From Pyrrhoderma lamaoense (taxonomy: Eukaryota > Basidiomycota > Agaricomycetes > Hymenochaetales > Hymenochaetaceae): a stretch of DNA of 64,000 nt. Location: contig NBAZ01000044.1 of NCBI GenBank assembly GCA_002794735.1, positions 1 through 64,000 on the forward strand, given 5' to 3'. The notes below the pieces were generated by a model. It saw nothing but the letters and a program-made list of their open reading frames with translations. It did no database searches and was not told the origin of the DNA. A program made the translations under genes and the position numbers. This document shows positions 17,487-39,906 of this stretch, in pieces (position 1 is the first letter of the stretch; every line of letters starts with the position of its first letter).

Positions 17487-18436
17487 GTACATTCGACTGA
17501 TTTGATTGATATTTCAGACTCACCTCCACATAGAATGGCCTCCGAGGGGCACGAAGACTCCGAAAGAAGAAGAAAAGGCCTCTTGATCAATCTCGAGAGG
17601 TGCCTTTTGACTTGCAGGAAGAACGGGCCTAGATCAAGGCCGTTCTGTGATTCAAGACCAGAGCCCGGACTGTACGAATGAAAGGGAGCGAGACGGCCTC
17701 ATAGTACAAGACGAAGACCCTTATCTCAGATACTGTACTGGGATCTTGGAGGCCCTTCAAGACGTTCGCCTCCATATTATTAAGAGTGTGGTTCGACTTG
17801 AGGTTTCTCACGAACTCTATTAGTTCGATAAAAAGGTTTTTTTGTTGGAAGACGACACAGGCGGCCTCAAGAAAGGAGGCATACTGTGTATTCGACACTT
17901 CAGGGAAAGGTGTCAAAGACCCGGTATGCATCTTCATATACCAATTGTAGGTATTATGAAGTCCTTTTTTGTCATCCTTATTGTTAAATAGAGCCCCCAT
18001 TAGGCTGAGGAGCTTAGCGGCCCCCCCGATAGATACGTCCTGAGCCCTAGAAGAGGCTATAGTCTCGGGATCTAGCCCAGCCGTAGCCAATTCTATAACT
18101 ACGGCGTTATCCTTGTTTGCTAGTGGTACCGGTGAGTCCTCTTTTGTTTTCCAGACCTCCTGCATAGCTAAGTTGCCTCCTTTTACAGCATTTAGATCCT
18201 TATGCATACAGCAGCCAACCCAGACAAACAGGGAGTCCCTCCCCCTTTCCTCATCGGTAAGTAGATCCATAGCCTCTTCAGCAAACGAACAGAACAGCCA
18301 GTCAGACCATTTTCTAGCAGATTCTTCTTCATCTTCTTCAGAAACCGAGTCAAGACCCCCGCGCTCTCTAAGATAGATAGCTGTTAGGATTTCCAAACTT
18401 TAGGCTTACCAATAACGATTATAAAGCGCTTACATC

Positions 18437-19087
18437 ATGTCTAATGAAGAAGTCACACAAGGCTCATCAACTAGCCGGGACAGACCCCAAAACATATGCC
18501 GAACCTGTTATAGAACAATACAAGAAATGGAAGAGATATGTAATAATATGGCCATACGAATAACAAAGGCCTTAATCAAGAACCAGAAGGAAGATTGGCG
18601 GTATTACAATAATTATGAATGGTTTGATATGCATACAAACAACTATCCATACGATACCACCCTGCATAACATAACAAGGGTACAGAACCACCTGTGGTTG
18701 GAAGAACCATTCAAAGGCATATACCCTGATCAACCTGAACTACAGGTTCGCTCCGAAGCAATGCTAGATGCTAGAAACCATGGAGAACCAATCCTAGTAG
18801 CATCCTCAATATGTGTTATACTACACAAGCAAGCTTCAGATGAAATCAAGGAAGCAATTCGTAAATCTGTAATCAGAGCTACAGACGAAAGCTTTGCACT
18901 ACAAGGACCAGGCATAATGACTATAGATGAACAGGAGACAACTCACTTTGCAATGCGAATGCACACACTGTGGAGAGGAATGATACATGAAACATATAAC
19001 AAAGCTCCTCGTCCAGGATTCGAGAGAGTAGATTGGATCACTCTTAACAGAGCTCAACCAGTAACACCTCCAGTAATACCACAGTGA
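18437..19087 (+). CDS. LTR-internal ORF, 216 aa, unknown function (5' LTR copy)
   Basis: An ATG at 18437, 55 bp into the LTR, opens a 216-aa frame with an N-terminal QNICRTCYRTIQEMEEICNN stretch, a YNNYEWFD..NNYPYD segment and a C-terminal PVTPPVIPQ. I recognise no family. It lies in the U3 part, upstream of the presumed LTR promoter (TATA at 19616), so it would need its own or an antisense-independent promoter. In the downstream LTR it could be transcribed by read-through. The copy in the 3' LTR differs by one residue. Such a long open frame inside an LTR, absent from usual gypsy LTRs, suggests a captured or element-specific gene, but near-identity of the two LTRs means conservation cannot be judged from this pair. 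Confidence 0.5.
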   Translation: MSNEEVTQGSSTSRDRPQNICRTCYRTIQEMEEICNNMAIRITKALIKNQKEDWRYYNNYEWFDMHTNNYPYDTTLHNITRVQNHLWLEEPFKGIYPDQPELQVRSEAMLDARNHGEPILVASSICVILHKQASDEIKEAIRKSVIRATDESFALQGPGIMTIDEQETTHFAMRMHTLWRGMIHETYNKAPRPGFERVDWITLNRAQPVTPPVIPQ

Positions 19088-19451
19088 GAAAGTCCTCCAT
19101 TACCAGTCATGCCTCATAGGGAACGCCCTATACTACCACACATCAATACTATTCTCCCAAGAGAGGAATGGGACAGAAACAATCCATCAGCCCATGCTAG
19201 AACAAGCATTGCGTCAGACCATCCACAGTTTGAATGGCGGACTAGCCATTCCTCTTAGCAAGCCCGAGGCTGGGCTAAGAAGATATTCCCATGCTGGGAG
19301 TAGACGCGCCGGTCGAATAAATTCTCACGATACGAATACGGTAATTCACGAGTCAGGTGATTGTAATAATGGACGCGGCAACAGAAATAGTTATAAACAA
19401 CATAACAAGCTTAGTGCTTTTGGATGAAGGACGAATTGGACACTTTAACTA

Positions 19452-19551
19452 GTGCCACAAATTGCTGGAGATATGGATACAGGTGCCATAAACAGTGGTG
19501 CCACAATGGTGCCACACTAGGTGCCACATTGGTGCCACACTAAGTGCCACA
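19452..19551 (+). promoter_or_regulatory. Array of seven GTGCCAYA boxes upstream of the LTR TATA box
   Basis: GTGCCACA at 19452, 19498, 19509, 19521, 19532 and 19544, and GTGCCATA at 19483. The last five are spaced 11, 12, 11 and 12 bp, about one helical turn each. They lie 70-165 bp before TATATAAG. The 3' LTR repeats the array at 33264-33363. Confidence 0.6.
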
Positions 19552-19615
19552 AATTAAATATAATAATAGTATTTCTTGACGATTAAATGGGTAGTTAGTT
19601 CACATGTAGTAGATG

Positions 19616-19623
19616 TATATAAG
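19616..19623 (+). promoter_or_regulatory. TATA box of the 5' LTR
   Basis: TATATAAG followed by gaggtcaattttgacc, a short inverted repeat. It is about 230 bp before the LTR end, a normal place for the U3/R boundary. Confidence 0.5.
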
Positions 19624-19945
19624 GAGGTCAATTTTGACCAAGATCTCCTCATTGAAATCAATCTTGTCACAAACCCAAAGACAGCTAATCTGTCTACATC
19701 TGATACATCACTATCATCTGTCAGTATATCTGGCCTACAAGTCGTTTCTGTTTTGAACACTGTGATATTAAGTACAAGGGCATCTTATATAATTACGCTT
19801 AGTCGTATTATCCCCTTGCTTATACAAGCAGATCAATACAGATCCTAACATATTGATTTCAATCTTCTTTCTACTACCCCTCTGGAGCAGTAGCCCGATA
19901 CCAGTCTTGGTTTAGGAAGAATATCATACTCCGGGCACTAGGTTT

Positions 19946-20572
19946 ATGGAACAAACTGTTTACCTCGCCATAACAATTGTTTCTACCTCACTCCTAGTTA
20001 ACCACTTGGCGAACAAAGCTATCAAAGCTAAGCTTGACAAAGCAGAAGGTTCTTTTCATCGTATTAGGGAAACCATCACCGAAATCCTCCTAAGACATAC
20101 CGAAACATTACGAACTGTTGCAGAGATTGACAGATACTTAGTCACTCTCACATCAAAGAATAATTTCTTGGAACAGAAACACACAAGAACGGAAAAGAAG
20201 ACCGAAAGGGCGCATCAAATAATAAGGAATATCCAAGTACAGCTTTGTGATAGACGAGAACAAGAAAGGAAAATCGATTCCTATATCTCACAGAACTTCC
20301 AGAATCAGTCCGAGTTTCTAAAACTATTTAAACAGTTTTTAGAACTTTGTGTCTACGAAGACAACAGAAAGATCGAAGAATTCGCTCAACATCTAGCCAA
20401 TCTACCCACAGAAGTAGTTGGAAACATTGGTCAAGAAATACCATCTGATCCGATTACTCGCATCTCCAGCCCAGACTCAGGATATCAAGTAGATACCCCA
20501 GAAGCTCAGTTCACTACCACAGTAACCACTGAACCAGTTACTTATTACGACGAGTCTAGTGAAGAAAACTAA
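19946..20572 (+). CDS. Retrotransposon ORF1: 208-aa membrane-anchored/coiled-coil protein before gag
   Basis: An ATG at 19946 gives 208 aa. Residues 3-18 are hydrophobic (VYLAITIVSTSLLVNH), a possible signal anchor. Residues 25-125 are rich in E, K, R, Q and I with heptad-like spacing (coiled coil). The tail is acidic and Ser/Thr-rich (TTVTTEPVTYYDESSEEN). The stop is three bases before the gag ATG (taa-aca-atg) in the same frame, so termination-reinitiation or read-through could couple them. It might be a structural part of Gag or an accessory protein. I recognise no family. Confidence 0.6.
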   Translation: MEQTVYLAITIVSTSLLVNHLANKAIKAKLDKAEGSFHRIRETITEILLRHTETLRTVAEIDRYLVTLTSKNNFLEQKHTRTEKKTERAHQIIRNIQVQLCDRREQERKIDSYISQNFQNQSEFLKLFKQFLELCVYEDNRKIEEFAQHLANLPTEVVGNIGQEIPSDPITRISSPDSGYQVDTPEAQFTTTVTTEPVTYYDESSEEN

Positions 20573-20575
20573 ACA

Positions 20576-21502
20576 ATGGCTGCTACATCTAAAGTTATTG
20601 CCAGGCTTGTTCCATACGATGGAAAGAAGAATGATGACCTTGCTAACTTCTTCTATCATGCAAGCCTTCGATTTAAAGCAGCAGGATTGGATACAGACGA
20701 AAAGAAAGTAGGATTTGTGCTACAGCACTTGCAGAAACCTGCATCTTCTTGGGCACAACCTATAGTCGAAAAATGGACTGAAGATAAATTAATACAAGTA
20801 TCAAATACAGCAAATGGAGTTACAACATGGGATGCAACATCTGGAGCATGGAAAGATTATAATGAATTCAAGACTTGGCTATGGGATAGATCTGGAAAAG
20901 CTGATAGAACTAAAGACGCAGAAGCCAAACTCGAAGCTATTAAACAAGGAAAGGGTAGTGTACACGACTACATAACCCTATTTGAAGATATAACTCTACA
21001 ATTACCCTCTCATTACGTTGAACCTCTTCTTAGAAGAGTATTCATGAAGGGACTTCGAGAAAGTGTTAGAGTAACCTTGGAATCTTATAAAGATTCAAGT
21101 ACTTGGACACTAAAAGAATGGAAGAAGAATGCGATTGACTTGGAAACGAACAAGAAGATTAATGCCCTACATTATACTGAATATACCCCTCAGAAGGCTA
21201 TAAAGGAAATGCCTAAAGGATGGGGCGATCCAATGGATGTGGATGCACAACGATATGCATTCAAGAAGAAGAAGGGTTGGATTAACAAAAGACACCAACG
21301 CCCGAAATCCCAATTTAAAGGGACTTGCAACAAGTGTGGCAAAACTGGCCACAAAGCTGCTCAATGCTTCGTGAAGAAGAAGAAACCCTTGGTGACCAAG
21401 GAGCAGCAATGGGATGATAACCTCTTTGGAGGTAGTAATGATGATATGGATGAGGATGAGAGTGATAATGAGGATTTTCAACACCCCACTCTAGCAAACT
21501 AG
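20576..21502 (+). CDS. gag: Gag (capsid/nucleocapsid) of the 15.3-kb retrotransposon
   Basis: 308 aa. The capsid-like part (about residues 10-200) has the retrotransposon Gag pattern (ANFFYHASLRFKAAG, EFKTWLWDRSG, YITLFEDITLQLPS). A zinc knuckle CNKCGKTGHKAAQC at 21325-21367 follows a Lys/Arg-rich linker. The C terminus is acidic (DDMDEDESDNEDF). It packages the genomic RNA. It is intact and ends before a 47-bp gap to the protease frame, which is in another phase. Confidence 0.85.
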   Translation: MAATSKVIARLVPYDGKKNDDLANFFYHASLRFKAAGLDTDEKKVGFVLQHLQKPASSWAQPIVEKWTEDKLIQVSNTANGVTTWDATSGAWKDYNEFKTWLWDRSGKADRTKDAEAKLEAIKQGKGSVHDYITLFEDITLQLPSHYVEPLLRRVFMKGLRESVRVTLESYKDSSTWTLKEWKKNAIDLETNKKINALHYTEYTPQKAIKEMPKGWGDPMDVDAQRYAFKKKKGWINKRHQRPKSQFKGTCNKCGKTGHKAAQCFVKKKKPLVTKEQQWDDNLFGGSNDDMDEDESDNEDFQHPTLAN

Positions 21503-21549
21503 CTGCGCCTAGAAGTGGGAAGACTCGGTTAATAAATGATAATTTATTT

Positions 21550-22248
21550 ATGTATAGCTTGCCTGTTGTATCTGAGCAACCAAGAATAAAGGTTAAAGGA
21601 TATCAAGGGCAGCTCGAAGTCGCAGCAGAGGCATTGATCGATTCAGGATCAGTGTGCTCAACGATACATCCAGCTCTAGTCGAAGAGTTCGGAATAAACA
21701 CTCAAAAACTCCCTCATCAACGAATCATCCAAAATGCTGATGGAACTGTTAATACCAGTGGTCCAATCAGAAGAGAAGTTAAAATGGCTATAAGCACTGG
21801 AATAGCTCCAAGAAAGCTACATACCTTTGCAGTAGTCAATACAGGGCGAAATGAAATGATTTTAGGATTAGATTTCCTAAAACGGTATAACCCAATAATC
21901 GATTGGGTGGCCAAGACTATCAAAAGTCGCAAATGGCCTCGATTTAAAGCCACAAGGCTTATCATAGCCCAACAGGAATATCAACCCATGGAACGGCTGA
22001 AGAAACAGCGAAAGAAAAAGAAAAAGAAAAAGTTGCAAGAAGAAGTTGGATATTATGAACTGATCCAACAAACCGGAAACAGGTACGCACCCTTAGCTAA
22101 AACACCTGAACAGGCAAAAGCTAGCCAAACAGGTAAAAGACCCCGAGGGCAAAGTGATTTAAGGAAATCACTCGAGTCCAGAAAGAGGACGAGACCAAGT
22201 CCTAAAAATGGGGATGTCAGTAATAAAAGCGAAAATCAATCTAAATGA
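21550..22248 (+). CDS. Aspartic protease region of the 15.3-kb retrotransposon
   Basis: 232 aa starting ATG 21550. The retropepsin active site is ALIDSGSVCSTIH, and the second part ILGLDFLKRYNPIIDW has the ILG motif. The C-terminal half is very basic (KKQRKKKKKKKLQEE). The end overlaps the start of the RT frame (22208-22248) in a different phase, so expression of RT needs a frameshift or internal start. It would cleave Gag and Pol. Confidence 0.8.
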   Translation: MYSLPVVSEQPRIKVKGYQGQLEVAAEALIDSGSVCSTIHPALVEEFGINTQKLPHQRIIQNADGTVNTSGPIRREVKMAISTGIAPRKLHTFAVVNTGRNEMILGLDFLKRYNPIIDWVAKTIKSRKWPRFKATRLIIAQQEYQPMERLKKQRKKKKKKKLQEEVGYYELIQQTGNRYAPLAKTPEQAKASQTGKRPRGQSDLRKSLESRKRTRPSPKNGDVSNKSENQSK

Positions 22249-25200
22249 GGTTGATGCCACTTTACGAGATGTTAAGTTTCCTGATATAGAACAGGAACTT
22301 GAAATGGAATCACTGTCCAGACAGTTTTCACGAATGGTTACTAGATCACCTAGTGAAAAGGACTATGATGCTGATGCGCAGACATCAGGTCTGGAATCTA
22401 AACAAGATTCAGATACTGACATGGCTAGACATGATTTAGATCATGATCTAGATTTTGAAGCCTTACAGATTAATCGCAATTGGATGCCTGATCAGAGTCG
22501 TTATAAAGAATACAAGAAGAGCCAACAGAAGCTCAGGAATCAGGCAATAAAGGCTGGAAGGGTTGCACAACGATATGCACAAGAAAAAGCTGCGTGCTTG
22601 GGGAGACTAGTAGATGGAATGGCACCAAGGAAAACCTTTGAGGAACTAGTCCCAAAACGACTCTGGAAATTCAAGGATAGATTTAGCGAAGAAGCTAGTA
22701 AAAGAATTCCAAAACATAGCAAGTATGATATGGAAATTAACCTTGAAGACGAATATGAAGAAGATCACAACAAGCTGCCAAAACCACAAAATCGATACAA
22801 GATTAGTCGAGACCATGCTAATGTTTTAGCGAATTGGGTCAAAGAAAATTTGGATAAAGGATGGATTAGAAAATCATTCTCTCGAGTAGCAGCAAGAGCC
22901 TTTGTGATTGGAAAGAAAGATGGAGGACATCGAATTGTATTGGACTATAGAGACATAAACAACTGCACGAAGCCAGATGTGTTTTCTATACCAATAATGA
23001 GCCAACTCACTGAAGATGTTGGCAAGGCTAAACACTTTACCACCTTAGATATGCGTTCTGGTTATAACAATATCAGAATCAAGGAAGGAGACGAATGGAA
23101 AGCTGCATTTAAAACACCACAGGGTGTTTATGAACCCTTGGTTATGCAGTTCGGAACCATGAATTCACCTGCAGTATTCCAACGAGCTATGAATGATCTT
23201 TTTGAAGATCTAATCGGAAAAGGAGTCCTAGTCTATTTAGATGATGTTATCATCTATACAAAGACTGAAGAAGAACATTGGCCTTTGGTAGAAGAAGTTT
23301 TACAACGAATGCGAAAAGCAGACTTCTATCTAAAGCCAGAGAAATGTTATTTCGATCAACCAAGAGTAGATTACCTTGGTTTTGTTATAACTAGAGAAGG
23401 ACTTACAGTGGACCCGAGAAAATCAAAGGAATACAAGAATGGCCAGCACCAAAGACAAGAAGACAAGTCAAAAGCTTTTTAGGGTTTACAAACTTCTACA
23501 GCAAGTTTGTTAAAGGATATGCAGGCATAGTCGAGCCTATATCCAGTCTTCTAAAGAAGAAACTTCGATTTAAATGGGATCAAGGACGTCAGCAAGCATT
23601 TGAAGCTATAAAGAAAGCTTTCACATGTACTCCAGTCTTACAACATCCTGACGATACCAAGCCATATATTATCGAAACTGATGCTTCCAAATATGCTACA
23701 GGAGCAGTAGTTCTTCAGAAAGGACCTGATAATGTCGAAAAACCAGTAGCCTTTCTATCAAAGAAACTCACTCCTACAGAAGCAAGATGGCCAGTCTATG
23801 ATAGGGAAATGTTGGCTATACTTCGAGCTCTTAAACAATGGAAACATCACCTTAATGGGAAAACCATAATCCGTACTGATCACCATAATCTCAAGTACTT
23901 TATGGAGGCCAATGAGTTGAATGATAGACAACTCCGATGGTACGAAATCTTGCAACCATACAAGATTCAAATCGAATACAAGCCAGGTAAAAGTAACACT
24001 ATACCTGATGCTTTATCCAGACGACCAGATTATGTCCCAGAAGGCGAAGAAAAGGAGCCCAAGAAAGTGATAGGAACTTTACTTCCTAAAAGTTTACTTA
24101 TGGGCAAAGATATAACCAAAGAACTCGAAACAAAGGCTCAACCCATAATGGTTAAAACTATGAATGCAATAGTTAACCAGGATCCTCTATTGAAAGAAAT
24201 CGAAGATGCTTACCAGGATTCTAACTGGGAAGAAGAAAAGACACTGGCAGGAAACAAACATGCATGGACACAACGAAGTGATTACCATACTAATGGTAAA
24301 ATTCACTATATAGGATCTCAAATTTGGATTCCACCAAATAAAGAACTTCGAAACAAGATCCTAAAACGAGTCCATGATGAATCTACAGCAGGACATCCAG
24401 GAATACATCGTACCTTAGTTAAACTACATCAAGAGTTTAAATGGTGGAAAGATAAACAAGACGTTGAAGCATATGTCTCAACATGCGAAGTATGTCAAAG
24501 AATAAAGACACGAAGAGGGAAGATACAACCTCCTCTCCAACCAATGGAGATACCACAACAGCCATGGGAAATCCTTAGTTGTGATTTCATAATGCCTTTA
24601 CCACAGACTCAAAGTGGAAAAGATGCGATTTTTGTTATACAGGATTACTTAACAAAGTGGTTCATTTTGTTGCTTGCAATAGCAACATAACTTCGGAACA
24701 AACCGCAAGTGTATTCTTAAAAACTATATTCCATCACTATGGAGCACCAAGAAAAATAGTCTCGGATAGAGGAACTCAGTTTACTAGTGCATATTTTCGG
24801 AGTATACTCCAAAAACTTGGAATAACACCGGGATTAAGCACAGCTTATCATCCTCAAATGGATGGCCAAACTGAGAGAACTAATAAAGTTCTAGAGGATT
24901 ACTTAAAGGGATATACCAATACCCTTCAGGACGATTGGGATACACATCTTAGCAATGCTATATTTGCTTATAATACGAGCTATCATTCGGCTATACAAAT
25001 GGAGCCTTATAAAGCCTTATATGGTTTTATACCGAAGTTAACTTGGTTAAACGAACCTGGGAACGTCCCAGCAGCGGATCATTTTGCTAACAGAGCAAAA
25101 CAAGCGCAAATAGAAGCACAAAAGCATTACAAATAGCACAAGAAGCTATGAAAGCATGGAAATAAAACCCGTGGAGATAAAGCCAACTTCGAAATCGGAG

Positions 25201-25703
25201 ATAGGGTGTTGCTTAACAGCAAGAACCTTAATCTAAACATACCATCCCGGAAACTTGGTTATCAGCATTTAAGACCCTTCACCATCATAGAAAAGATTGG
25301 CGAAGTTTCTTACAAATTGGAATTGCCACGAACCATGAGAATACACCCAGTATTTCATGAGTCCTTATTAAAACCATACAATAAGGATGATAACCCAAAT
25401 AGAGAACAATTTGCTCATCCAGATCCGGAAGTTATAGATGGAGAACCAGAATATGAAGTAGAAGAAATAATAGATTTTGATACTGAGGAACATCCTAATC
25501 AGTACAAAGTCCGATGGAAGGGATATCAAGAAAATGATGATTCCTGGGAACCTATTTCAAATCTGGAAAATTCACCGGAGTTATTATGGCGATATCATAC
25601 AGATAATAGCGATAAATCCATACCTGCTAAGGTTAGAAAATGGATACGAAATTGGAAAGTACTCCAAGGAGCTGCTATTATCTTGGGAGGAATGAATTAT
25701 TAA
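22208..25703 (+). pseudogene. pol: Pol: reverse transcriptase, RNase H, integrase, chromodomain (frame-broken)
   Basis: RT (about 22680-23430) has VIGKKDGGHRIVLDYRDIN, FTTLDMRSGYNNI and the catalytic VYLDDVIIY. RNase H has YIIETDASKYATGAV and KPGKSNTIPDALSR. Integrase has the zinc-binding H/H/C/C region (HDESTAGHPGIH...CEVCQRIK), SDRGTQF and a YHPQMDGQTERTN block. The C-terminal chromodomain (25430-25600) has YEVEEIIDFD...YKVRWKGY..DDSWEP. Frame breaks: GG at 23428-23429, GG at 24659-24660, and a compensating pair at 25131-25133 and 25160-25162; each is repaired by one base in a homopolymer. A chromodomain integrase implies targeting to marked chromatin. Whether it is dead depends on whether those bases are real. 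Confidence 0.82.
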
Positions 25704-26170
25704 ATTGATTCATGTTACGTCCGGAAAGACGTTAAAATACCAGTTATGGAATATTATTTATCTCATATACGTCCGGAATGACGTTAAACTAGCACACATG
25801 AGTCTTAATTGATTCATGTAACGTCCGAAAAGACGTTAAACTAAGCCATATGGATCATGTATTGATTCATATATGTCCGAAAAGACATAAAACTAACTCC
25901 ATGGGATAATACTTATTCCATAAACATCTGAAAAGATGTAAAACTAACCTAATAGGCCTAAGATGCTTATTACGTCCGAGAAGACTTAAAACTAATGGAA
26001 TAAACCAATTAGGTTTATTATATCCGAAAAGATATCAAACTAGTAATATAACCTTATAGGGTTATAGTCCGAAATGACTAGAAACTAACTTGCCTCCTAA
26101 ACTTAAAGGAGATGATTATAAGTCCGAAATGACTAGAATAAACTATGTGGCATAATTTGCAGTTGCCACA
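25692..26170 (+). repeat. Array of 19 alternating hairpins with covarying stems downstream of pol
   Basis: Nine short hairpins start at 25717, 25769, 25819, 25872, 25924, 25971, 26020, 26065 and 26121 (spacing 45-56). Each has a stem ending in TC/GA, a 6-nt loop of form YGRRAW (mostly CGAAAA or CGGAAA), then a downstream AAACTA in most. Between and around them are ten longer hairpins (25692-25713, 25745-25767, 25796-25819, 25848-25872, 25901-25921, 25950-25972, 25999-26019, 26047-26066, 26094-26111, 26146-26170) with unrelated sequences but 5-10-bp stems. Stem sequences change on both sides together. Wobble pairs are G-U as read on the plus strand, pointing to an RNA structure in the element's transcript. 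No coding is seen here. Confidence 0.8.
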
Positions 26171-26257
26171 AGGAAGTGGATTAAAGGAGTAAAACTGGAA
26201 CTTATAGCATATAAAACTCCATCAAAGATAATCGAAGCAGAAGCATCAATCAAACCC

Positions 26258-27637
26258 TTGAACTCTATTCACAACTCTAACACGATGTCTCGCGATAAAA
26301 TCGAACATGTTGCCCTGGGAGAATTCACTATAGTGGAAGAAGCACCTAAAGAACCTATTATCTTGCCTAATACTTCGGCGGAGTTACCTCTAGGAGAACT
26401 TTTTGCTGGTGAAAACATGTACCCACATGTTAAACTATCAAAATACGATCAATTTGTTACCATGGTTCTTCCTGGCCCAGACAGTCTCAATAAGGTACCA
26501 TCTCCATCAATTACAAAGAAAGAATTGATGCCGCCTTTAGACATGTGAGAAATACACTTACTGTGTCGGAAACTAATATACCTTGGTACAAGTTTATTGA
26601 ATACCAACCGCGGATCAAACTGGACTTGGCAAGACATGTATCCCCTTTAGTTCTGGATCGGATAATCAAAGGTCTTCGACATGTGCTACAGGCTTACAAA
26701 CTAAGCTATGCACACGAATGGCATGGGAAAATTTCTCTAACTTGCAACTAGAAGCATTAATCTATTTTGGAAATCACTTGATACATCCAAATCGATTTGA
26801 GCTTAATGGTAGTTGTGCAACCATCAATCCATTTGATGAGTTGATCGCAAAAGGCATGCACTTATGCGATAACTATGAAGAGTTTTGTGAACTTTATGTA
26901 GAGTTTACAGAAAGGGCTAAATGCGAAATCATAGCACGAAGAGCAGCAGCAATCTATGCTCCATTTCCTAGTCCTCAGGAAAGAAGCAAGCTAGTACTCT
27001 ATACACAGATAGTGGATAATATGAAGAATATTCCGGAGTTTGTAGGATTGGAACAGGCACTCAACCGGAGCTTCATACAAGTCTATAATGATGCTTACCG
27101 AAAGGAGTATTGAAAGATGCTAAACAGGAAGGTTCTAGCAAGGACCCTATTAACTTAGGCGCCCAGGAACCTATAGTATTGCCACTTGGATTGACGCAAT
27201 TCTGCGATCAGTGGCTGGACAAGGTTACAACCCCATATGATAACTTGCCAGAAGAAGTTCTCAGCAACCAAGATGCCGAAACTGCGGCACAGAATCCACA
27301 GAATGCGCCAGGACCTTGGGGACCACAAGGATTCTTAGCGAAGGAAGCAGCAAAAGCTGTTGCTAATGGACTTAACTTTAAGCCCTTAAACGAATGGTCT
27401 AAACTGGAAAGGGATGTGTTTGCCACAACGGGTTGGCTTAATGTAAAACATCCTAATGCGGAAGATAAACAATACATAGAACCCCCTACTCGTACTGGGG
27501 ATCTGAAGCTAATGATATCTAGAGAAGAGACCCTAAAAGAATTATACCCTCACCTCCGTTTGGTTTCTAACTTATTCTCACCTCTTAACATAAAAGCAAC
27601 ATCTCGGAATTTACTATTTAAAGGAGCCCATCAATGA
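26258..27637 (+). pseudogene. Retrotransposon ORF3, about 460 codons, unknown function, three frame breaks
   Basis: Four consecutive open segments (26258, 26545, 26718, 27110) join into one frame if one base is added at 26515-26525 (A/G-rich run), at GG 26720-26721 and at GG 27104-27105. The continuous reading includes GEFTIVEEAPKEPIILP, ERIDAAFRHVRNTL, ENFSNLQLEALIYFGNH and APGPWGPQGFLAKEAAKAV. No membrane segment or known catalytic motif is visible. It lies after the hairpin array and would need internal initiation or a subgenomic RNA. It could be an accessory gene; it is not obviously envelope-like. I do not recognise it. Confidence 0.55.
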
Positions 27638-27730
27638 CTCAAGAATCTATCAACTCGCTCTATTCACTGGTCTTTGCCATCTATATCACTCAACTACTAC
27701 TACTACTACTACTACTCATACTTCTACATC
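27638..27730. repeat. ACT microsatellite between ORF3 and ORF4
   Basis: (ACT)8 at about 27693-27716 inside a short pyrimidine-rich linker. Confidence 0.8.
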
Positions 27731-28305
27731 ATGTCGTTCCTCAACACCTTTAACATCATCTCCTCTTACATTGCCGCTTACCTTCTCCACTTACTCCATC
27801 CTCGCTCAACTACGTAAAATACGAACAATGGGTCCAGAGGTTATTTGCTCAAAAGCATACTGACTCTGTCACTGTGGACATGATAATCATGGAACGACTG
27901 TTGGATTGAGGAATGTAGCTGTAGAGAAAGAGGAAAGAACTGGTCGGTGTAACGAATGGTTCTGCGATGTATGTGATCACTGGGTAGGAGCTACTTGGAT
28001 GACTATGAAGTCAAGTGCTGGGTGACAGAAGAGACCGAGTCAACTAGTGAGCTCATAGAAGAAGTCCATGACCCTCGAATTGCTGACTTACTGGACTTGA
28101 TAGCCAGCATAGAAGAGGGTTTGCAGATGACGATGATGAGTATGATGGTGATGTAGAGCCTCCAAGACCCTTTACTCCATTCATTAATTATATTAGAGTC
28201 GGAAAGGTTGATGATGATGATGATGATGATGGCAATCTAACGCCTGATTCAGTTCTTGTTAGAGAGGAGTTTGATGATGACTCTTTCTTTAATTTACCCT
28301 CTTAA
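27731..28305 (+). pseudogene. Retrotransposon ORF4: Cys/His-rich and acidic-tailed, frame-broken
   Basis: An ATG at 27731 begins MSFLNTFNIISSY. After a change of frame near 27800-27870 the sequence reads CHCGHDNHGTTVG, then RCNEWFCDVCDHWV, a possible zinc-binding cluster. After GG at 27987-27988 it reads YLDDYEVKCWVTEETEST, and after GGG at 28117-28119 it reads ADDDDEYDGDVEPPRPFTPF and an Asp run from a (GAT)7 tract, ending at TAA 28303-28305. The three frames join only if bases are added, two of them in G runs. I recognise no family. It may be an accessory protein or a captured host fragment. Confidence 0.42.
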
Positions 28306-28725
28306 ATTGTTTATTCTTTCTTTCTTTCTTTCTTTCTTCTCTCTCTTTAATTCTTTTTGGACTGTCTCGCTTTTCTCTTCTTTTTCTAGCTTCATGTAAA
28401 AAGGATTGACATGTCTCTTTATTTATTATAAAAGTTTTCTTCTCCAACGTTGGGTCCGACACTATGCAGGACTAATCATGTATTTATAGGGTTGACTTGC
28501 CCTCGATTTTACATGTATAGAGGCTTATTTATTCTTGAAGGGCCAGTAGTCGACCATTAACTTAAATGGACGCTTACTGGGGTTTCAAAGATAACGGAAA
28601 GCCAAAGCAGTATATCTTCGGATATGTACTAGCTGTGACTAACTTAGATTGCTACAGCTGTGGATGTGGAAACATCACACGCTTGAGCAATTAAGAAAGT
28701 CGAGATATTAAGTTGTTGTACCTCC
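28306..28725. other. Non-coding 3' region of the retrotransposon
   Basis: Contains a (TTTC)n microsatellite at about 28315-28339 and a pyrimidine-rich stretch. No open frame. It ends at TSD cctcc (28721-28725). Confidence 0.6.
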
Positions 28726-28842
28726 TGTTACGGGATTGGAGGTTTGAAGATTCGCGGATCATCGGCTAGGTCGGAGATCAAACACAAACCAAATATAGGA
28801 AGCTGCAAATCCTGCCTATTACGAACAATAGCAAACTCAGCT

Positions 28843-29688
28843 ATGTCACACAGGGAAGTCCTCTCTCAAGATGGAGAAAGGCCTGCGGTGTTTGAACGAC
28901 TACATGCGCAGCCAGCAGAGCCATTGCTGGATCAAGTCCGTGGCTGGATAGAATCACGGCAAAGGTTGGAAACTAGGGCCTTACCAAATCCTACAGGAGA
29001 TGTAGGTGTTCGTATAGCAGTACATGAAGCAGAACGAACTAGCGAATCTCAAGTACACAGTCAGGTGGAACGAGTCCCTTGGTACCAGACCAGAGTAGGG
29101 TGTATTAATTGCAAGAAGACTTATTCGTTACAATCGGACCTTTACAGGATCACTTGGACAACTCTCTTCGAAATGGGAGTGGATGCTACCGAGTTTACAG
29201 TACAGGTACAGAAGTACTGGACAGACGATTCTATCCGAGAATTCCCTCACTGGGAACAAGATGTATGGACTTTTCACTACATTACACTCTTGAAGTTAAA
29301 AAGGGAGGAAAAGGTCTGGGGTCAAATTAGGATTGTGGTCTTAACGAATATGGAGCATACAGGACACCAGCACGAAGAACAGTGCAGCAGTAGTGTGGTT
29401 CACTATCAAGTGATACCAAAGGATCCCCCAGAATGGGGAATACTCTTACTCCGTCAGCTACCAAGGAAAGTCTACGATCACCTCAAGTTAATCGATGTGC
29501 CTGGATACATACGGTGGGGATATCACCAATACTTCAATGCCGAACAACGTGTGGCCTGCTGGGTCGGCACGGACCATTCAGGGTCTTTGTGGAGTGAAGG
29601 CACAACACGCTTCAGCCACAATTGGGGTTATCTAGGGTTCAGGACAGTGGACCCTAACTCAGGGACAGGAGATTGGGAATCTCTCTAG
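28843..29688 (+). CDS. LTR-internal ORF of family L2, 281 aa, unknown function
   Basis: An ATG at 28843 (the frame is open further upstream to about 28744) gives a protein with VGCINCKKTY (a CxxC pair), a WTTLFEMGVDATEF segment, PPEWGILLLRQLPRKVYDHL and a C-terminal HNWGYLGFR...GDWESL. The same frame is intact in the copy at 35079-35924, with about 20 amino-acid differences and no stop or frameshift. That argues for past selection on the protein. It sits in U3, about 190 bp before the LTR TATA box. I recognise no family. It may be an element-encoded accessory protein or a captured gene. Confidence 0.55.
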   Translation: MSHREVLSQDGERPAVFERLHAQPAEPLLDQVRGWIESRQRLETRALPNPTGDVGVRIAVHEAERTSESQVHSQVERVPWYQTRVGCINCKKTYSLQSDLYRITWTTLFEMGVDATEFTVQVQKYWTDDSIREFPHWEQDVWTFHYITLLKLKREEKVWGQIRIVVLTNMEHTGHQHEEQCSSSVVHYQVIPKDPPEWGILLLRQLPRKVYDHLKLIDVPGYIRWGYHQYFNAEQRVACWVGTDHSGSLWSEGTTRFSHNWGYLGFRTVDPNSGTGDWESL

Positions 29689-29879
29689 ATCAGATCTAAG
29701 GGTCTCAGGGTCTCAGGGTCTCAGGGAGTAATGCGATCGTATGGACTGCGGAGCAGGGACGATAAGGGTTCAGACATGTGTGGGACACACAGGGTCTTCA
29801 GGGACTTGTGGAGCAAGTGCCCTTAAAGTTATGATTAGGATAAAGGAATACCCATAGCATAATGGGTGTTGATGAAGGC

Positions 29880-29887
29880 TATAAAAG
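29880..29887 (+). promoter_or_regulatory. TATA box of solo LTR L2
   Basis: TATAAAAG in ggctataaaagcagg, conserved in the second copy at 36116-36123. Confidence 0.5.
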
Positions 29888-30496
29888 CAGGACTTTTGGA
29901 CATCGTAGAGTAGATTGTTCAGACTCACTTATAGCCATCATCTGGTAATAAGTTTACTTCAAGCCGTAAAACGGTAACAAGTTACAACTACACTTAAAGT
30001 ACAATACCTGCGCTCAGTCAAGATTGTCATTAGCTGGCAAAGGTGTTGCTTTAAGGGTATCTGTATTGTGGTAGAACATCTAGCTTTCTCTAACATTGTT
30101 ACTTGTTCTCTATCACTGTACAGTGAGGAGACTACTTCTATACTCTCCAAGAAGGACCACGTTATCGTACTACGAGTTATTGCATCGGCATCGTTTAGGT
30201 TGAATCAATACCTTGGTCGACACCTCGCGTGATTACCTCTTTGTCACAATCTACTTGTAGTGTCCTCGGCACTTGGCACGACGACTTCGAGACCCCCTAC
30301 CTTGAAGAAGCACCAACTGCTCGTTAGCTTTAACCGGACTAGGTGTCTATTTAGTCTGATCAACTACTCAGCACACTGCTAGCCCACCCCTGTTGGCGAA
30401 AGGATTAGAGTTGCCTTATCTGGGTTATCGAACCTCTATTACTAAGGATTGTAGATCACACTGATCCCTTAGTTTTAAGGAAACCGTAACACCTCC

Positions 30497-31034
30497 TGTA
30501 CCATCTTTTATATAAGATTGGGCAAGAAGTCGACAAATTAATGCAAACCTAAGTCTAATCCCTAAGGGATGTAATGACAAAGGTTAAACTAGACTTCGTT
30601 AATCTGAGCATTGGGTCCAGTGACAAACTGGGAACTAAAGCTTAGATAATTGGGAAGGTCGAAACTATTGTAGTGTCTGGCTCTTCTTACAATGTTAAGA
30701 TAGAGAAGAAATGCAATAGAATGACGTATATTTATGTCTAATCCTTAAGGGATGTAATGACAATGGTTATATGTCATAAAGTGATCAATATTAGATGCAC
30801 TTTTGGGACGTATAATAGAACTATCATAATCTTTTTGTCCAGCTTAGAAATAAGTGGCATAAGATATGATAAAGTTGGACGAAGCTAATCTGAGCTTACA
30901 AGTCTAACTTATAGAAGTGTATAGTCATACTTATATGAAGTCTACACAATGGGGGAGAGAGGTTGAGAGTAATTAACTCGAAAATTCTCAAAAACCCACT
31001 TGGACATTTACAGATGTTGAAGCAAAGGCTTTAT
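30497..31034. other. Non-coding part of the 15.3-kb element with a paired direct repeat
   Basis: A 34-bp word with the core cctaagggatgtaatgac occurs at about 30551-30584 and again, with cttaag, at about 30737-30770. A purine-rich stretch lies at about 30951-30966. No coding sequence seen. Confidence 0.5.
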
Positions 31035-31852
31035 TGTTATGAAACCAAGTCTATTTTCGCTTTTTTGCTTACTAAGCAGCTTACATAAGCTGACTAAGCA
31101 CTTACATAAGCATCTTACATAAGTGGATTATCTAATCATCTTACATAAGCTGCTTACCTAATCATTATTACCTAAGCATCTTACCTAATCAGCTTAGTCA
31201 GCATGCTTACCTAATCACTTACATAATATGCTTACATAAGTCGCTTACTAAGCACTGACTCAGCACATGACTCAGCTGTCTTATTAAGCATCTCATCTTA
31301 TCTTATCTCTCTCTTATCTCCACTGCTTACTCATCTGTTCTAGAACATTCTGAGACCTTCCAGAACACTCTAGAACATTCCACCATGTTCTACCACCTTC
31401 CATCATTCTCCATGGCCACCTTTCCTTATTTGGTTTAGTCCCCTTTGTAATTAGCCTATTTTATGTTTCAGCTAGCACAGCCTAGCTTAGCCTGTTTGTT
31501 TAGCCTATTTCTTATGTTTCATCTAACACAGCCTAGCACAGCTTAGTTAGCCTAATAGTTTAGCCATAGACCCTGCCGGGTTTTTTCATTATTCCCACAC
31601 TGCCTCCCACATGTATAAATACCCCCCTCCTGTCAGTAGCTAGTCCCCCAGTCTTGATCTTGTCTTCCCTCCTAGACTAGTACCTTCTAATACATCCTCT
31701 TGTCCCCTCCTCACTGTTCTTCCCCTCCTCTTGCCCCTCCTCTCCTCTGTCTCTGTCTATATCAGTGTATGCTGGTTGTGCCTTGTCTTCAGACCCTGCT
31801 GACTAAGCATTCTGCTGACTAATACTGGTACTAGAACTAGTCATTGCTGACA
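31035..31852 (+). mobile_element. Solo LTR, family L3 (gypsy of the right arm), TSD tttat
   Basis: 818 bp, TGTTATGAAACC...TTGCTGACA, flanked by tttat at 31030-31034 and 31853-31857. It is the reverse complement of the LTRs at 39069-39879 and 45128-45995. The order in element sense is a CTTA/TAAG-rich repeat region, two TGACTCA sites (31256 and 31268), heat-shock-type elements (31338-31380), CTAGC-rich repeats, TATAAATA (31614-31621). Confidence 0.88.
31338..31380 (+). promoter_or_regulatory. Heat-shock-element-like repeats in LTR L3
   Basis: TTC 31338, GAA 31343 and TTC 31348 form a perfect three-unit nTTCnnGAAnnTTCn. TTC 31358, GAA 31363, CTC 31368, GAA 31373 and TTC 31378 form a second with one imperfect unit. 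They lie about 240-280 bp before TATAAATA. Confidence 0.65.
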
Positions 31853-31857
31853 TTTAT

Positions 31858-32193
31858 AATACCATGGGAGTGGACAGCGGTTACTTAAACTCGTCTACTT
31901 AATGGGTATTTATGCGAAACAAGCTAATGTTATCTGGAAAGAAGGAAATTATATCTTTATTCTTCACCCATAACATTCTCTATTTGGATCTAACGAGACG
32001 AAGCAGTTCCCACAATTGTTATGGCTAAATTAAACTATTTGTTAAACCAAGACATACTTTTGTTGTATGTTGGACAGCCTTATAGGTTGTTAAACATATT
32101 TAACAAAATAATTGTTAAAAGTTTGATAAATTAGGCCTTATTTTCGATAAAAACTTTGTTTTCACCGGAAAATGAAGTCTTGGGAGGGCAGTT
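31858..32193. other. Non-coding sequence before the 3' LTR, including polypurine tract
   Basis: No gene. A purine-rich gggagggca just before the LTR (about 32182-32190) is the likely plus-strand primer site. Confidence 0.5.
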
Positions 32194-33662
32194 TGTTAGG
32201 ATTTCCAAACTTTAGGCTTACCAATAACGATTATAAAGCGCTTACATCATGTCTAATGAAGAAGTCACACAAGGCTCATCAACTAGCCGGGACAGACCCC
32301 AAAACATATGCCGAACCTGTTATAGAACAATACAAGAAATGGAAGAGATATGTAATAATATGGCCATACGAATAACAAAGGCCTTAATCAAGAACCAGAA
32401 GGAAGATTGGCGGTATTACAATAATTATGAATGGTTTGATATGCATACAAACAACTATCCATACGATACCACCCTGCATAACATAACAAGGGTACAGAAC
32501 CACCTGTGGTTGGAAGAACCATTCAAAGGCATATACCTTGATCAACCTGAACTACAGGTTCGCTCCGAAGCAATGCTAGATGCTAGAAACCATGGAGAAC
32601 CAATCCTAGTAGCATCCTCAATATGTGTTATACTACACAAGCAAGCTTCAGATGAAATCAAGGAAGCAATTCGTAAATCTGTAATCAGAGCTACAGACGA
32701 AAGCTTTGCACTACAAGGACCAGGCATAATGACTATAGATGAACAGGAGACAACTCACTTTGCAATGCGAATGCACACACTGTGGAGAGGAATGATACAT
32801 GAAACATATAACAAAGCTCCTCGTCCAGGATTCGAGAGAGTAGATTGGATCACTCTTAACAGAGCTCAACCAGTAACACCTCCAGTAATACCACAGTGAG
32901 AAAGTCCTCCATTACCAGTCATGCCTCATAGGGAACGCCCTATACTACCACACATCAATACTATTCTCCCAAGAGAGGAATGGGACAGAAACAATCCATC
33001 AGCCCATGCTAGAACAAGCATTGCGTCAGACCATCCACAGTTTGAATGGCGGACTAGCCATTCCTCTTAGCAAGCCCGAGGCTGGGCTAAGAAGATATTC
33101 CCATGCTGGGAGTAGACGCGCCGGTCGAATAAATTCTCACGATACGAATACGGTAATTCACGAGTCAGGTGATTGTAATAATGGACGCGGCAACAGAAAT
33201 AGTTATAAACAACATAACAAGCTTAGTGCTTTTGGATGAAGGACGAATTGGACACTTTAACTAGTGCCACAAATTGCTGGAGATATGGATACAGGTGCCA
33301 TAAACAGTGGTGCCACAATGGTGCCACACTAGGTGCCACATTGGTGCCACACTAAGTGCCACAAATTAAATATAATAATAGTATTTCTTGACGATTAAAT
33401 GGGTAGTTAGTTCACATGTAGTAGATGTATATAAGGAGGTCAATTTTGACCAAGATCTCCTCATTGAAATCAATCTTGTCACAAACCCAAAGACAGCTAA
33501 TCTGTCTACATCTGATACATCACTATCATCTGTCAGTATATCTGGCCTACAAGTCGTTTCTGTTTTGAACACTGTGATATTAAGTACAAGGGCATCTTAT
33601 ATAATTACGCTTAGTCGTATTATCCCCTTGCTTATACAAGCAGATCAATACAGATCCTAACA
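32194..33662 (+). repeat. 3' LTR of the 15.3-kb retrotransposon
   Basis: 1469 bp, same length as the 5' LTR and identical apart from one base that I noticed near 32537 (t for c). It contains the second copy of the 216-aa ORF, the GTGCCACA array and TATATAAG (33428-33435). Confidence 0.9.
32249..32899 (+). CDS. LTR-internal ORF, 216 aa, 3' LTR copy
   Basis: Same frame as 18437-19087 with one change (GIYLDQPE for GIYPDQPE). In this position it could be transcribed as the last ORF of the genomic RNA. Function unknown; see the 5' copy. Confidence 0.5.
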   Translation: MSNEEVTQGSSTSRDRPQNICRTCYRTIQEMEEICNNMAIRITKALIKNQKEDWRYYNNYEWFDMHTNNYPYDTTLHNITRVQNHLWLEEPFKGIYLDQPELQVRSEAMLDARNHGEPILVASSICVILHKQASDEIKEAIRKSVIRATDESFALQGPGIMTIDEQETTHFAMRMHTLWRGMIHETYNKAPRPGFERVDWITLNRAQPVTPPVIPQ

Positions 33663-34961
33663 ATAGCCATGCGCTCGGCTCGTAGTTCTGCTTGTTCCTC
33701 AGGGGTCTTGGAGTAAAAAAAACAAGCCCCATAGGCCCGGGGTAAGTTCTCTTCTTTCCATTTCTGTAGTATTCCATATTTTGACTTTTGATCTTCAGCA
33801 TGGTCACTATGAAACCCCAAGAACTTGATAGGAACAGAAAACACATTAAAACACTCCCCAAGACCAAGATTTGAGGACACCGGGCTTGATTTGAAGGTAT
33901 CTAGAACCTTTTCAAGTGTTTCTCTTATTTCTTGAGCTTGAGTTGCTGACTTATGATTCGCAGTTAGATTTACCCCGAGAAGACAAACCCTAGGCTTGAT
34001 CTCGGAGGAGTCGTCTTGAAGGTATGAACTTGGGGCACTCAAATTTAAATGTAAAGATTCAAAATTTTTATTTTTATTACTAGTGCCGTCACCACCAATT
34101 GTAAAACCTTTAAAGTAAGTTTTAAAGTTAAAATTCTATCTTTATTTAGGTTGTATATTCTCTATCTTACTGGCAGCCTGGTTTATCTCATAACCAGCTT
34201 GTACATCTGCCGCCACCCCCTCCTCTAATATCACCCTCTTAACCGTCCGAGAACTAACTTCTTTTAGTTCTCGGACACCTCTAGGCCTCGATACCCACTG
34301 CGATACATAGCCTAGGACGCAGTGAAGGATTCGGCCGGCCTTTTGAGACGGACAGCCAAGTTGAACCACTATCCGTATAAGGGATCAGAACCCCGGGGTA
34401 TAGACTCCTTTATCAGATAGGTTGAACACCATATTTGCTTTCTTTAAGACTCTTGAATACTGATTTTTCTTCATCCTAGCTCTCTTGTAGCGGCAATCAA
34501 GTCTACGGCCCCTAGCACGGGCCTCTTCGAGTTTGGACTTCAAGATCTCATTTCTTAGAGATAAACCAGAGAGCTTCGCTCGGGAAGCTTCTAACTCTTT
34601 CTCAAGCTTCAAGTAAGACTCTGAGTGCAAGGACAGGGACCTTTTTGAGAGGTCTAGATGCTTCTGAGTCTGAGTCGATAGCTGGAGGGTCGTCTGGGAC
34701 CATGCTAGTGTGTTCGAGCAGCTTGCTCGTGTTTCGGTGAGTTCCCTATCTTTTGATTCTATTTCTTTTTCTAATCTAGCCAAATCTTCTTTTAAAGTAT
34801 TATTGATGGCTTCAAGGTCTTTGGACCTTTTTTTGTACCAGAAAAGAGAAGCCCTTTTACTTTCTTTAACCTGAGTCAAGTCCAGAATACGAGCACGAGC
34901 GTTTTGAAGGTCTTGCTCGTATGTTTCTCCTAGCTCAGCCAACTCTTCTTCAAGCTCTTCA

Positions 34962-36738
34962 TGTTACGGGATTGGAGGTTTGAAGATTCGCGGATCATCG
35001 GCTAGGTCGGAGATCAAACACAAACCAAATATAGGAAGCTGTAAATCCTGCCTATTACGAACAATAGCAAACTCAGCCATGTCACACAGGGAAGTCCTCT
35101 CTCAAGATGAAGAAAGGCCTGCAGTGTTTGAACAACTACATGCGCAGCCAGCAGAGCCATTGCTGGATCAAGTCCGTGGTTGGATAGAATCACGGCAAAG
35201 GTCAGATACTAGGACCTTACCAAATCCTACAAGAAACGTAGGTGTTTGTATAGCAGTCCATGAAGTGGAACGAACTAGCGAATCTCAAGTACACAGTCAG
35301 GTGGAACGAGTCCCCTGGTACCAGACCAGAGTAGGGTGTATTAATTGCAAGAAGACTTATTCGTTACAATCGGACCTCTATAGGATCACTTGGACAACTC
35401 TCTTCGAGATGGGAGTAGATGCTACCGAGTTTACAGTACAAGTACAGAAGTACTGGACAGATGATTCTATCCGAGAATTCCCTCACTGGGAGCAAGATGT
35501 ATGGACCTTTCACTACGTTACATTCTTGGAGTTAAAAAGGAAAGAAAAGGTCTGGGGTCAAGTCAGGATTGTAGTCTTAACGAATATGGAGCATACGGGA
35601 CACCAGCACGAAGAACAGTGCAGCAGTAGTGTGGTTCACTATCAAGTGATACCAAAGGATCCCCCAGAATGGGGAATACTCTTACTCCGTCAGCTACCAA
35701 GGAAAGTCTACGATCACCTCAAGTTAATTGATGTGCCTGGATACATACGGTGGGGATATCACCAATACTTCAATGCCGAACAACGTGTGGCCTGCTGGGT
35801 CGGCACGGACCATTCAGGGTCTTTGTGGAGTGAACATACAACACGCTTCAGCCACAATTGGGGTTATCTAGAGTTCAGGGCAGTGGAGCCTAACTCAGGG
35901 ACAGGAGATTGGGAATCTCTTTAGATCAGATCTAAGGGTCTCAGGGTCTCAGGGTCTCAGAGAGTAATACAATTGTATGGACTGCAGAGCAGGGACGATA
36001 AAGGTTCAGACATGTGTGAGATACACAGGGTCTTCAGGGACTTGTGGAGCAAGTGCCCTTAAGGTTATGATTAGGATAAAGGAATACCCATAGCATAATG
36101 GGTGTTGATGAAGGCTATAAAAGCAGGACTTTTGGACATCGTAGAGTAGATTGTTCAGACTCACTTATAGCCAATAACTGGTGGTAATATCCAACAACTG
36201 TTGGTAAAAACCATCATCTGGTAATAAGACATCAACTACACTTGAAGTACAATACCTGCGCTCAGTCAAGATTGTCGTTAGCTGGCAAAGGTGTTGCTTT
36301 AAGGGTATCTGTATTGTGGTAGAACATCTAGCTTTCTCTAACATCGTTACTTGTTCTCTATCGCTGTACAGTGAGGAGACTACTTCTATACTCTCCAAGA
36401 AGGACTACGTTATCGTACTACGAGTTATTGCATCAGCATTGTTTAGGTTGAATCAATACCTTGGTCGACACCTCGTGTGATTACCTCTTTGCCACAATCT
36501 ACTTGTAGTGTCCTCGGCACTTGGCACGACGACTTCGAGACCCCCTACCTTGAAGAAGCACCAACTGCTTGTTAGCTTTAACTGGACTAGGTGTTTATTT
36601 AGTCTGATCAACTATTCAGCACACTGCTAGCCCACCCCTTTTGGTGAAAGGATTAGAGTTGCCTTATCTGGGTTATCAAACCTCTATTACTAAGGTTGTA
36701 GATCGCGCTGATCCCTTAGTTTTAAGGAAACCGTAACA
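34962..36738 (+). mobile_element. LTR, family L2 (1777 bp), at the junction of the two transposon arms, no TSD
   Basis: Same termini as 28726-30491 (TGTTACGG...CCGTAACA) but flanked by cttca and gggtt, so no target duplication. On its left is the truncated coiled coil of the minus-strand transposase copy; on its right is that of the plus-strand copy, cut about 160 bp further upstream in the gene. This fits recombination between two LTR copies in two transposons, which made the head-to-head arrangement. It is not identical to the first copy (several amino-acid changes in the ORF and small indels). Confidence 0.8.
35079..35924 (+). CDS. LTR-internal ORF of family L2, 281 aa, second copy
   Basis: Open from ATG 35079 (frame open from about 34980) to TAG 35922-35924, colinear with 28843-29688. 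It retains VGCINCKKTY, PPEWGILLLRQLPRKVYDH and the GDWESL terminus. Differences cluster in residues 40-75 of the ATG-start protein. Having two intact diverged copies is the best evidence that this frame is or was translated. Function unknown. Confidence 0.55.
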   Translation: MSHREVLSQDEERPAVFEQLHAQPAEPLLDQVRGWIESRQRSDTRTLPNPTRNVGVCIAVHEVERTSESQVHSQVERVPWYQTRVGCINCKKTYSLQSDLYRITWTTLFEMGVDATEFTVQVQKYWTDDSIREFPHWEQDVWTFHYVTFLELKRKEKVWGQVRIVVLTNMEHTGHQHEEQCSSSVVHYQVIPKDPPEWGILLLRQLPRKVYDHLKLIDVPGYIRWGYHQYFNAEQRVACWVGTDHSGSLWSEHTTRFSHNWGYLEFRAVEPNSGTGDWESL

Positions 36739-39879: not shown

Positions 39880-39906
39880 TTACCCCCTCTCTTAGATTGA
39901 TTGTCC
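39880..39906 (-). other. Polypurine tract next to the 3' LTR
   Basis: On the minus strand the sequence reads taagagagggggta, an uninterrupted purine run directly before the LTR. This is the expected primer for plus-strand DNA. Confidence 0.65.

Follow-up and report, generated by a model that had tools for sequence, protein, structure and literature searches.

A tandem array of covarying hairpins behind the pol gene of a fungal Ty3/Gypsy chromovirus, a probable handle on the genomic RNA

A tandem array of short hairpins lies between the pol gene and a downstream open reading frame (ORF3) of an LTR retrotransposon from the fungus Pyrrhoderma lamaoense. Its structure is, by computation, biased towards the sense strand, the stems of one of its two hairpin classes (the B hairpins) covary, and a fixed tip and a fixed linker recur in many tandem copies. 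The array is probably a handle on the genomic RNA, perhaps for packing it into particles. The window, i.e., the whole stretch of 64,000 nucleotides that was analysed, lies on contig C44 (NBAZ01000044.1, positions 1 to 64,000), and the genome searched is the corresponding 30.65-Mb assembly of 72 contigs.

The retrotransposon that houses the array is 15.3 kb long (18382-33662) and is bordered on both outer sides by the 5-bp repeat ATAGC. It is a Ty3/Gypsy chromovirus, with gag, protease, RT, RNase H, integrase, chromodomain and an LTR pair all present, arranged as follows:

18382-19850, plus strand: 5' LTR, 1469 bp, 99.93% identical to 32194-33662, holding an ORF of 216 aa (18437-19087)
20576-21502, plus strand: gag, with Pfam Retrotrans_gag and Ty3_capsid above the cut-off and zf-CCHC just below it
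21472-25703, plus strand: protease, RT, RNase H, integrase and chromodomain region (Pfam), split over several frames and ending in TAA at 25701-25703
25692-26170, plus strand: hairpin array, ten A and nine B hairpins, between the pol stop codon and the downstream ORF3
26210-26217, plus strand: TATA-like site TATAAAAC, a possible internal promoter of ORF3
26285-27113, plus strand: ORF3 region, spread over more than one frame, its start being the first ATG behind the array
32194-33662, plus strand: 3' LTR, 1469 bp, pair of the 5' LTR

Since pol is split over frames in the window copy, this copy may depend on others. About 7.3 kb of the element precede the array, and about 6 kb separate it from the 3' LTR further downstream. 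Between the pol stop and ORF3 the sequence is noncoding, its three frames holding 19, 22 and 8 stops. The TAA that ends the last pol frame sits inside the loop of A1, the first hairpin. One relative of gag, 99% identical, was found in the protein collection; the RT piece and the RNase H-integrase piece have no relatives in IMG/VR, and the search of the phage collection gave no match.

Other features of the element were also observed. Upstream of gag, an ORF of 208 aa (19946-20572) looks coiled-coil-like by eye and has a sub-threshold Pfam match only. Repeats at 28723-30491 and 31035-31854 are common to 34959-36738 and to 39066-39883 / 45125-46000; they are absent by eye from the 3' end of a sister element (contig C50) and are thus probably later insertions. 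The ORF in the LTR resembles a real gene. Compared with the window, the synonymous to non-synonymous counts are 14:7, 27:14, 25:15, 30:15 and 27:14 in five copies and 12:15 in a sixth, these six copies (L092-L097, of 11 further whole-LTR matches) sharing ancestry and not being independent. In four of the six other copies this ORF extends to 273 codons. The protein collection contains two relatives of it, one 98% identical over the full length and the other 89% over 26%. The ORF is reminiscent of the MMTV sag gene, which sits in the LTR as well.

Each repeat unit of the array comprises an A hairpin, a gap of 0-3 nt (8 nt in unit 9), a B hairpin and a linker of 10-13 nt, and TRF assigns the array a period of 52 bp. 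The individual hairpins are listed below, the p values of the A hairpins being relative to shuffled segments:

25692-25713, plus strand: A1, pol stop codon in the loop, p 0.01
25717-25732, plus strand: B1, loop CGGAAA
25745-25767, plus strand: A2, weak, p 0.50
25769-25784, plus strand: B2, loop CGGAAT
25796-25819, plus strand: A3, p 0.002
25821-25836, plus strand: B3, loop CGAAAA
25848-25872, plus strand: A4, p 0.014
25873-25888, plus strand: B4, loop CGAAAA
25901-25921, plus strand: A5, p 0.016
25924-25939, plus strand: B5, loop TGAAAA
25951-25971, plus strand: A6, p 0.23
25972-25987, plus strand: B6, loop CGAGAA, four of five pairs
25999-26019, plus strand: A7, p 0.01
26020-26035, plus strand: B7, loop CGAAAA
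26049-26064, plus strand: A8, p 0.28
26065-26080, plus strand: B8, loop CGAAAT
26094-26111, plus strand: A9, p 0.008
26120-26135, plus strand: B9, loop CGAAAT, four of five pairs
26146-26170, plus strand: A10, p 0.016, with no B hairpin behind it
25733-26145, plus strand: stretch with the nine linkers, one of 10-13 nt behind every B hairpin

An earlier note on this DNA had described nine YGRRAW loops with complementary flanks, and all nine were found exactly where it had placed them, the flanking complementarity extending over 3-7 bp. The B tip has the form Y-GRRA-W in every case, and the first G and the last A of GRRA are invariant columns (G8 and A11). Read as a tetraloop, such a tip is by its sequence of the GNRA type, its first G and last A being fixed and its third base a purine; the GNRA sequence rule holds for 9/9 loops of the window and for the 4/4 B loops of a second array, found on contig C15. 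Among the window loops, the Y-W pair flanking GRRA is Watson-Crick only in B5 (U-A), and the energy model gives six-base loops for most B hairpins, in keeping with the six-base loop of the earlier note. The motif AAACTA follows eight of the nine B hairpins (at 25786, 25838, 25890, 25941, 25989, 26037, 26082 and 26140), B1 being the exception. The earlier note had further described ten hairpins alternating with these. All ten lie between or around the B hairpins, and seven of them fold better than shuffles (p 0.016 or less), but A2, A6 and A8, taken singly, are no better than shuffled segments. When combined, the ten A segments reach p 7e-8 on the plus strand and 0.006 on the minus strand.

Folded as a whole, the plus strand of the array reaches -123.6 kcal/mol with a z of -8.26, versus -4.13 for the minus strand, and none of 150 shuffles folds as low on either strand. 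Shuffled sequences thus do not fold equally well, nor are the two strands equally stable, and the strand difference is also seen when pairing is restricted to at most 32 nt (z -8.4 plus, -5.3 minus). With this restriction, the array ranks first of the 532 window-strands in 64 kb (30 shuffles per tile and 100 for the array; mean z -0.67, s.d. 1.67), the next non-overlapping ones being 46801 (-7.2 and -6.1, both strands) and 22081 (-7.0 on the plus strand). In 150-nt windows over the element interior, the lowest plus-strand z, -8.2, is found at 25776, in the array, where the minus strand is at -2.3. The stability of the array is uneven, as fixed 150-nt tiles from 25651 give plus-strand z values of -0.65, -4.15, -1.55 and -2.55, and these tiles are beaten by a pol tile at 24751 (about -5.5, both strands). 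Over the 300 nt that follow the pol stop, with pairs of up to 60 nt, the strands of the window differ little (z -4.97 plus, -3.98 minus). For the C15 copy, the same 300 nt give z -2.1 plus and +0.3 minus, and its array folds with z -4.6 on the plus strand versus -1.8 on the minus strand. The five G-U pairs listed in the earlier note are present in the folds; the strand argument drawn from them is weaker than proposed, since 10 G-T versus 5 A-C pairs are counted with a strand-symmetric stem finder (p 0.30), so that the G-U bias alone is no proof of strand.

Some other structured segments were seen in the window. One of them lies before the 3' LTR, at 30500-31000 (z -6.95 plus, -3.91 minus), and contains two near-copies of TCTAATCCYTAAGGGATGTAATGACAA. 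The segment 22081-22560 spans the protease-RT junction, its minus strand reaching -4.05. The segment 46801-47279 is very stable on both strands and is therefore probably an inverted repeat.

The B stems keep their pairing through sequence change. In these stems 43 of 45 cells are paired, both-sided changes occur in 7 cells versus 2.0 expected, and the covariation score is 0.456 versus 0.153, values that none of 500 shuffles reaches, the shuffles taking as unrelated units that are kin. Three of the five pairs vary, with a both-sided change in each. This number of pairs with a both-sided change is reached by 36/500 shuffles and that of further pair types by 218/500, neither being significant. 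Slid versions of the B stems show only 0-1 both-sided cells. Several of the B changes are CpG transitions in both arms, which are mutationally easy, and the weight of the B covariation is thereby lowered, not removed.

For the A stems, covariation within A1-A5 of the window alone falls short of significance (197 and 327 of 5000 shuffles). When the four C15 hairpins are added, 61 of 63 cells are paired and 10 are both-sided (1 and 3 of 5000 shuffles), in a nine-row test that was registered by eye from the outer ATG/CAT and that includes duplicate rows (A3 = c3 and c2 = c2b in all seven positions). Hairpins A6-A10 have no evident shared sequence, and each of them pairs better internally than with arms from the nine remaining A hairpins. 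The mean pairing energy is -6.97 kcal/mol for cognate A arms and -1.09 for swapped ones, a comparison that is biased because the arms were taken from each fold. The proposal that a structured sense RNA is selected for pairing is thus supported by the folds, by the B covariation and, once the C15 copy is added, by the A covariation.

The whole-genome DNA search revealed at least one further array, at C15:16558-16759 (minus strand), in a decayed copy whose pol is interrupted by a stop codon. Four units are seen in this array, including an additional one that resembles unit 2, and the sequence departs thereafter. The YGRRAW loop and TAAACTA are kept in all four of its B hairpins, with only 14 of 20 stem pairs. 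Run over the window and eight other loci, a hairpin model retrieved all nine B hairpins of the window and all four of the C15 copy, plus a single match at chance level (13 bits, E 2.3). A 16-letter B pattern matches the genome 25 times, six in the array and 19 scattered with no other cluster, counts that are lower bounds; this pattern misses the C15 array. Another pattern, GTCYGRRAWGACNNNNAAACTA, matched 54 stretches in IMG/VR, once each, and was taken as chance. An Rfam search over 25000-27000 gave no match at gathering score, the only one below it being the bacterial sRNA YenS (19.6 bits versus a gathering score of 80), and thus no described ribozyme was matched either.

A relative of ORF3, 32-35% identical, is encoded by a second chromovirus family. 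After the pol stop, four copies of this family are structured on the plus strand (z -3.3, -3.4, -2.2 and -2.7) and not on the minus strand (-0.65, -0.8, +0.6 and -1.1), a sense bias like that of the array; the pol stop codon is likewise in the loop of the first hairpin. A tandem repeat was not seen in the post-pol region of this family, which gives no covariation signal because its copies are too alike, their changes being mostly transitions by eye. Its ORF3 has no relative in the protein collection, and its predicted structure, computed with the window fragment aligned, has a pLDDT of 40 and was set aside. A survey of chromoviruses covered 30 of 62 places, two of them from the window family and 28 others, many of which belong to the same families. 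Four of these 28 other copies (L028, L030, L031 and L032) have a plus-strand z below -2 after the pol stop, the minus strand being about equal (-3.5, -2.6, -2.3 and -2.4).

To our knowledge, genomic-RNA selection by fungal Ty3/Gypsy elements is poorly mapped. The reading put forward here, which as a whole we hold only tentatively, is that of a genomic-RNA structure whose tips and linkers form a platform, most likely for packaging by Gag or Pol, the ORF3 transcript being without the array. The array would have grown by tandem duplication of a two-hairpin unit, made of a variable A hairpin, a GNRA-capped B hairpin and an AAACUA linker of 10-13 nt that would be unpaired. Selection would keep the stem pairing, the GRRA tip and the linker, and let the stem sequences drift. 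The repeated tips and linkers could then offer a multivalent platform to one protein, for which Gag with its zinc knuckle would be the nearest candidate and Pol the second. Such binding would single out full-length genomic RNA to be assembled into virus-like particles. A separate transcript of ORF3, with its start downstream of the array, would lack it; if there is such a transcript, only the genomic RNA would be marked, as described for the packaging signal of alphaviruses (PMC8233893) and, by structure, for MMTV (PMC8096270). In Ty3, the zinc finger is described as critical for packaging in the cited passages of a review on Ty1 and Ty3 encapsidation (PMC4974528).

It is conceivable, if somewhat doubtful, that the element has amplified its own protein-binding RNA module ten-fold, so that its full-length RNA outcompetes other transcripts for assembly. 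With similar reserve, the stems may be seen as drifting freely, only the GNRA tip and the AAACUA linker being fixed. If true, this would be an assembly element for which open-licence literature searches found no precedent among LTR retrotransposons. The many diverged natural units would also represent a ready-made mutational experiment, each unit showing which bases the partner tolerates, and the binding partner could be fished out with a short RNA.

Among the uses suggested in the earlier note, packaging seems to remain the best, and others have to be weighed against it. As it follows the pol stop, the array stands in the 3' UTR of gag-pol, a position that would also suit a post-transcriptional element governing how the gag-pol RNA is exported, stabilised or localised, through host proteins bound to the tips or to the AAACUA linkers. 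The occurrence of AAACTA in 8/9 linkers points in the same direction, as does its distribution over the whole element, 21 times on the plus strand (about 11 expected) versus twice on the minus strand. However, 13 of these 21 occurrences are outside the array, on an A-rich plus strand, and such a role is considered unlikely. The AAACU of the linkers fits the m6A motif DRACH, and ACUAAY resembles a STAR/branch-point motif. For alfalfa mosaic virus (AMV), the cited passages (PMC9414508) discuss a hairpin loop whose AAACU may be a site of m6A modification.

Since it lies between pol and ORF3, with no ATG from its end to that of ORF3 at 26285, the array could alternatively serve internal ribosome entry, as the earlier note had proposed, or reinitiation for ORF3, the second family with its ORF3 relative being structured there too. 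Between the array and the ATG, however, are 114 nt that contain the TATA-like site, and at the corresponding place the second family has TATATAAAA in 7/7 aligned copies. The array is moreover a repeated module, a form in which we know of no described IRES. Together, the TATA-like site and the ATG-free leader of 114 nt suggest a separate ORF3 transcript, for which the site itself is weak evidence, its pattern having nine plus-strand occurrences in the element when both LTRs are counted. Ribosome entry is weakened by these observations; it appears improbable, and less likely than packaging.

Palindromes acting at the DNA level, as transcription factor sites or as an insulator before an ORF3 promoter, would account for the near-perfect inverted repeats of the B arms, for a minus strand that also beats shuffles (z -4.13), for the non-significant G-T versus A-C count and for the small strand difference in the 300-nt setting. 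They would fit less well with the better folding of the plus strand in the arrays of both the window and C15, with A stems of units 6-10 that have no evident common sequence, and with the conservation of an asymmetric loop and linker, which makes this explanation quite improbable. Reverse-transcriptase slippage on hairpins is a mechanism of repeat growth. A neutral tandem repeat produced in this way, like the post-pol repeats of plant Retand, would agree with the TRF period of 52 bp, with a unit number that varies (the second unit-2-like unit in C15) and with the tandem arrays that about half of recently active Retand elements carry after pol, according to the cited passages (PMC11963269), but neutral drift would not keep pairing in diverged stems, and this origin is very unlikely.

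The earlier note knew of no described counterpart, a statement that is too strong for the architecture, given the AMV array and the Retand repeats, and that holds for this array as far as Rfam and open-licence literature searches extend: neither contained an LTR retrotransposon with a tandem array of covarying, GNRA-tipped hairpins. Ordinary chromovirus gag/pol domains, post-pol tandem repeats (Retand) and hairpin arrays of RNA viruses are already known. Mitochondrial double-hairpin elements also consist of two adjacent hairpins and are dispersed in mitochondrial DNA; in contrast, the searches of this genome, whose counts are lower bounds, placed the fungal unit in a single retrotransposon family and showed no such dispersed copies. 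In foamy viruses, CAS-II lies in the 3' part of pol. The cited passages (PMC7828637) describe it, together with a Pol encapsidation signal, as a packaging element that the genomic RNA carries in addition to that at the 5' end, and among such second elements it offers the nearest parallel. It has purine-rich tracts and is not described there as a tandem hairpin array, whereas the fungal array is located just after pol, in a noncoding gap. Packaging signals usually reside in the 5' part of the RNA, CAS-II being an exception in the cited passages, and the fungal array is far from the 5' end.

The alphavirus packaging signal, made of stem-loops, belongs to the genomic RNA (PMC8233893); unlike the fungal array, it lies in coding sequence and displays GGG, not GNRA, and tandem duplication is not mentioned in the cited passages. 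In MMTV, unpaired purines of a stem-loop are bound by Gag, and unspliced RNA is bound whereas spliced RNA is not (PMC8096270); the cited passages concern one loop near the 5' end and no array. The plant Retand elements, which are also Ty3/Gypsy, share with the fungal element the tandem repeats between pol and the 3' LTR (PMC11963269). They belong to a plant non-chromovirus lineage, whereas the fungal element has a chromodomain, and the main text of that paper uses none of the terms hairpin, stem-loop or secondary structure. In architecture, the AMV 3' UTR comes closest: its stem-loops, flanked by AUGC, form a linear array that provides several independent coat-protein sites, as described in the cited passages (PMC9414508). 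The fungal array likewise consists of linear stem-loops with a short repeated flanking motif, but AMV is an RNA virus with an AUGC motif in a terminal 3' UTR, whereas the fungal motif is AAACUA and lies inside an LTR element. As compared with the AMV array in those passages, the fungal one is further distinguished by its GNRA-type tips and its tandem-duplicated two-hairpin units.
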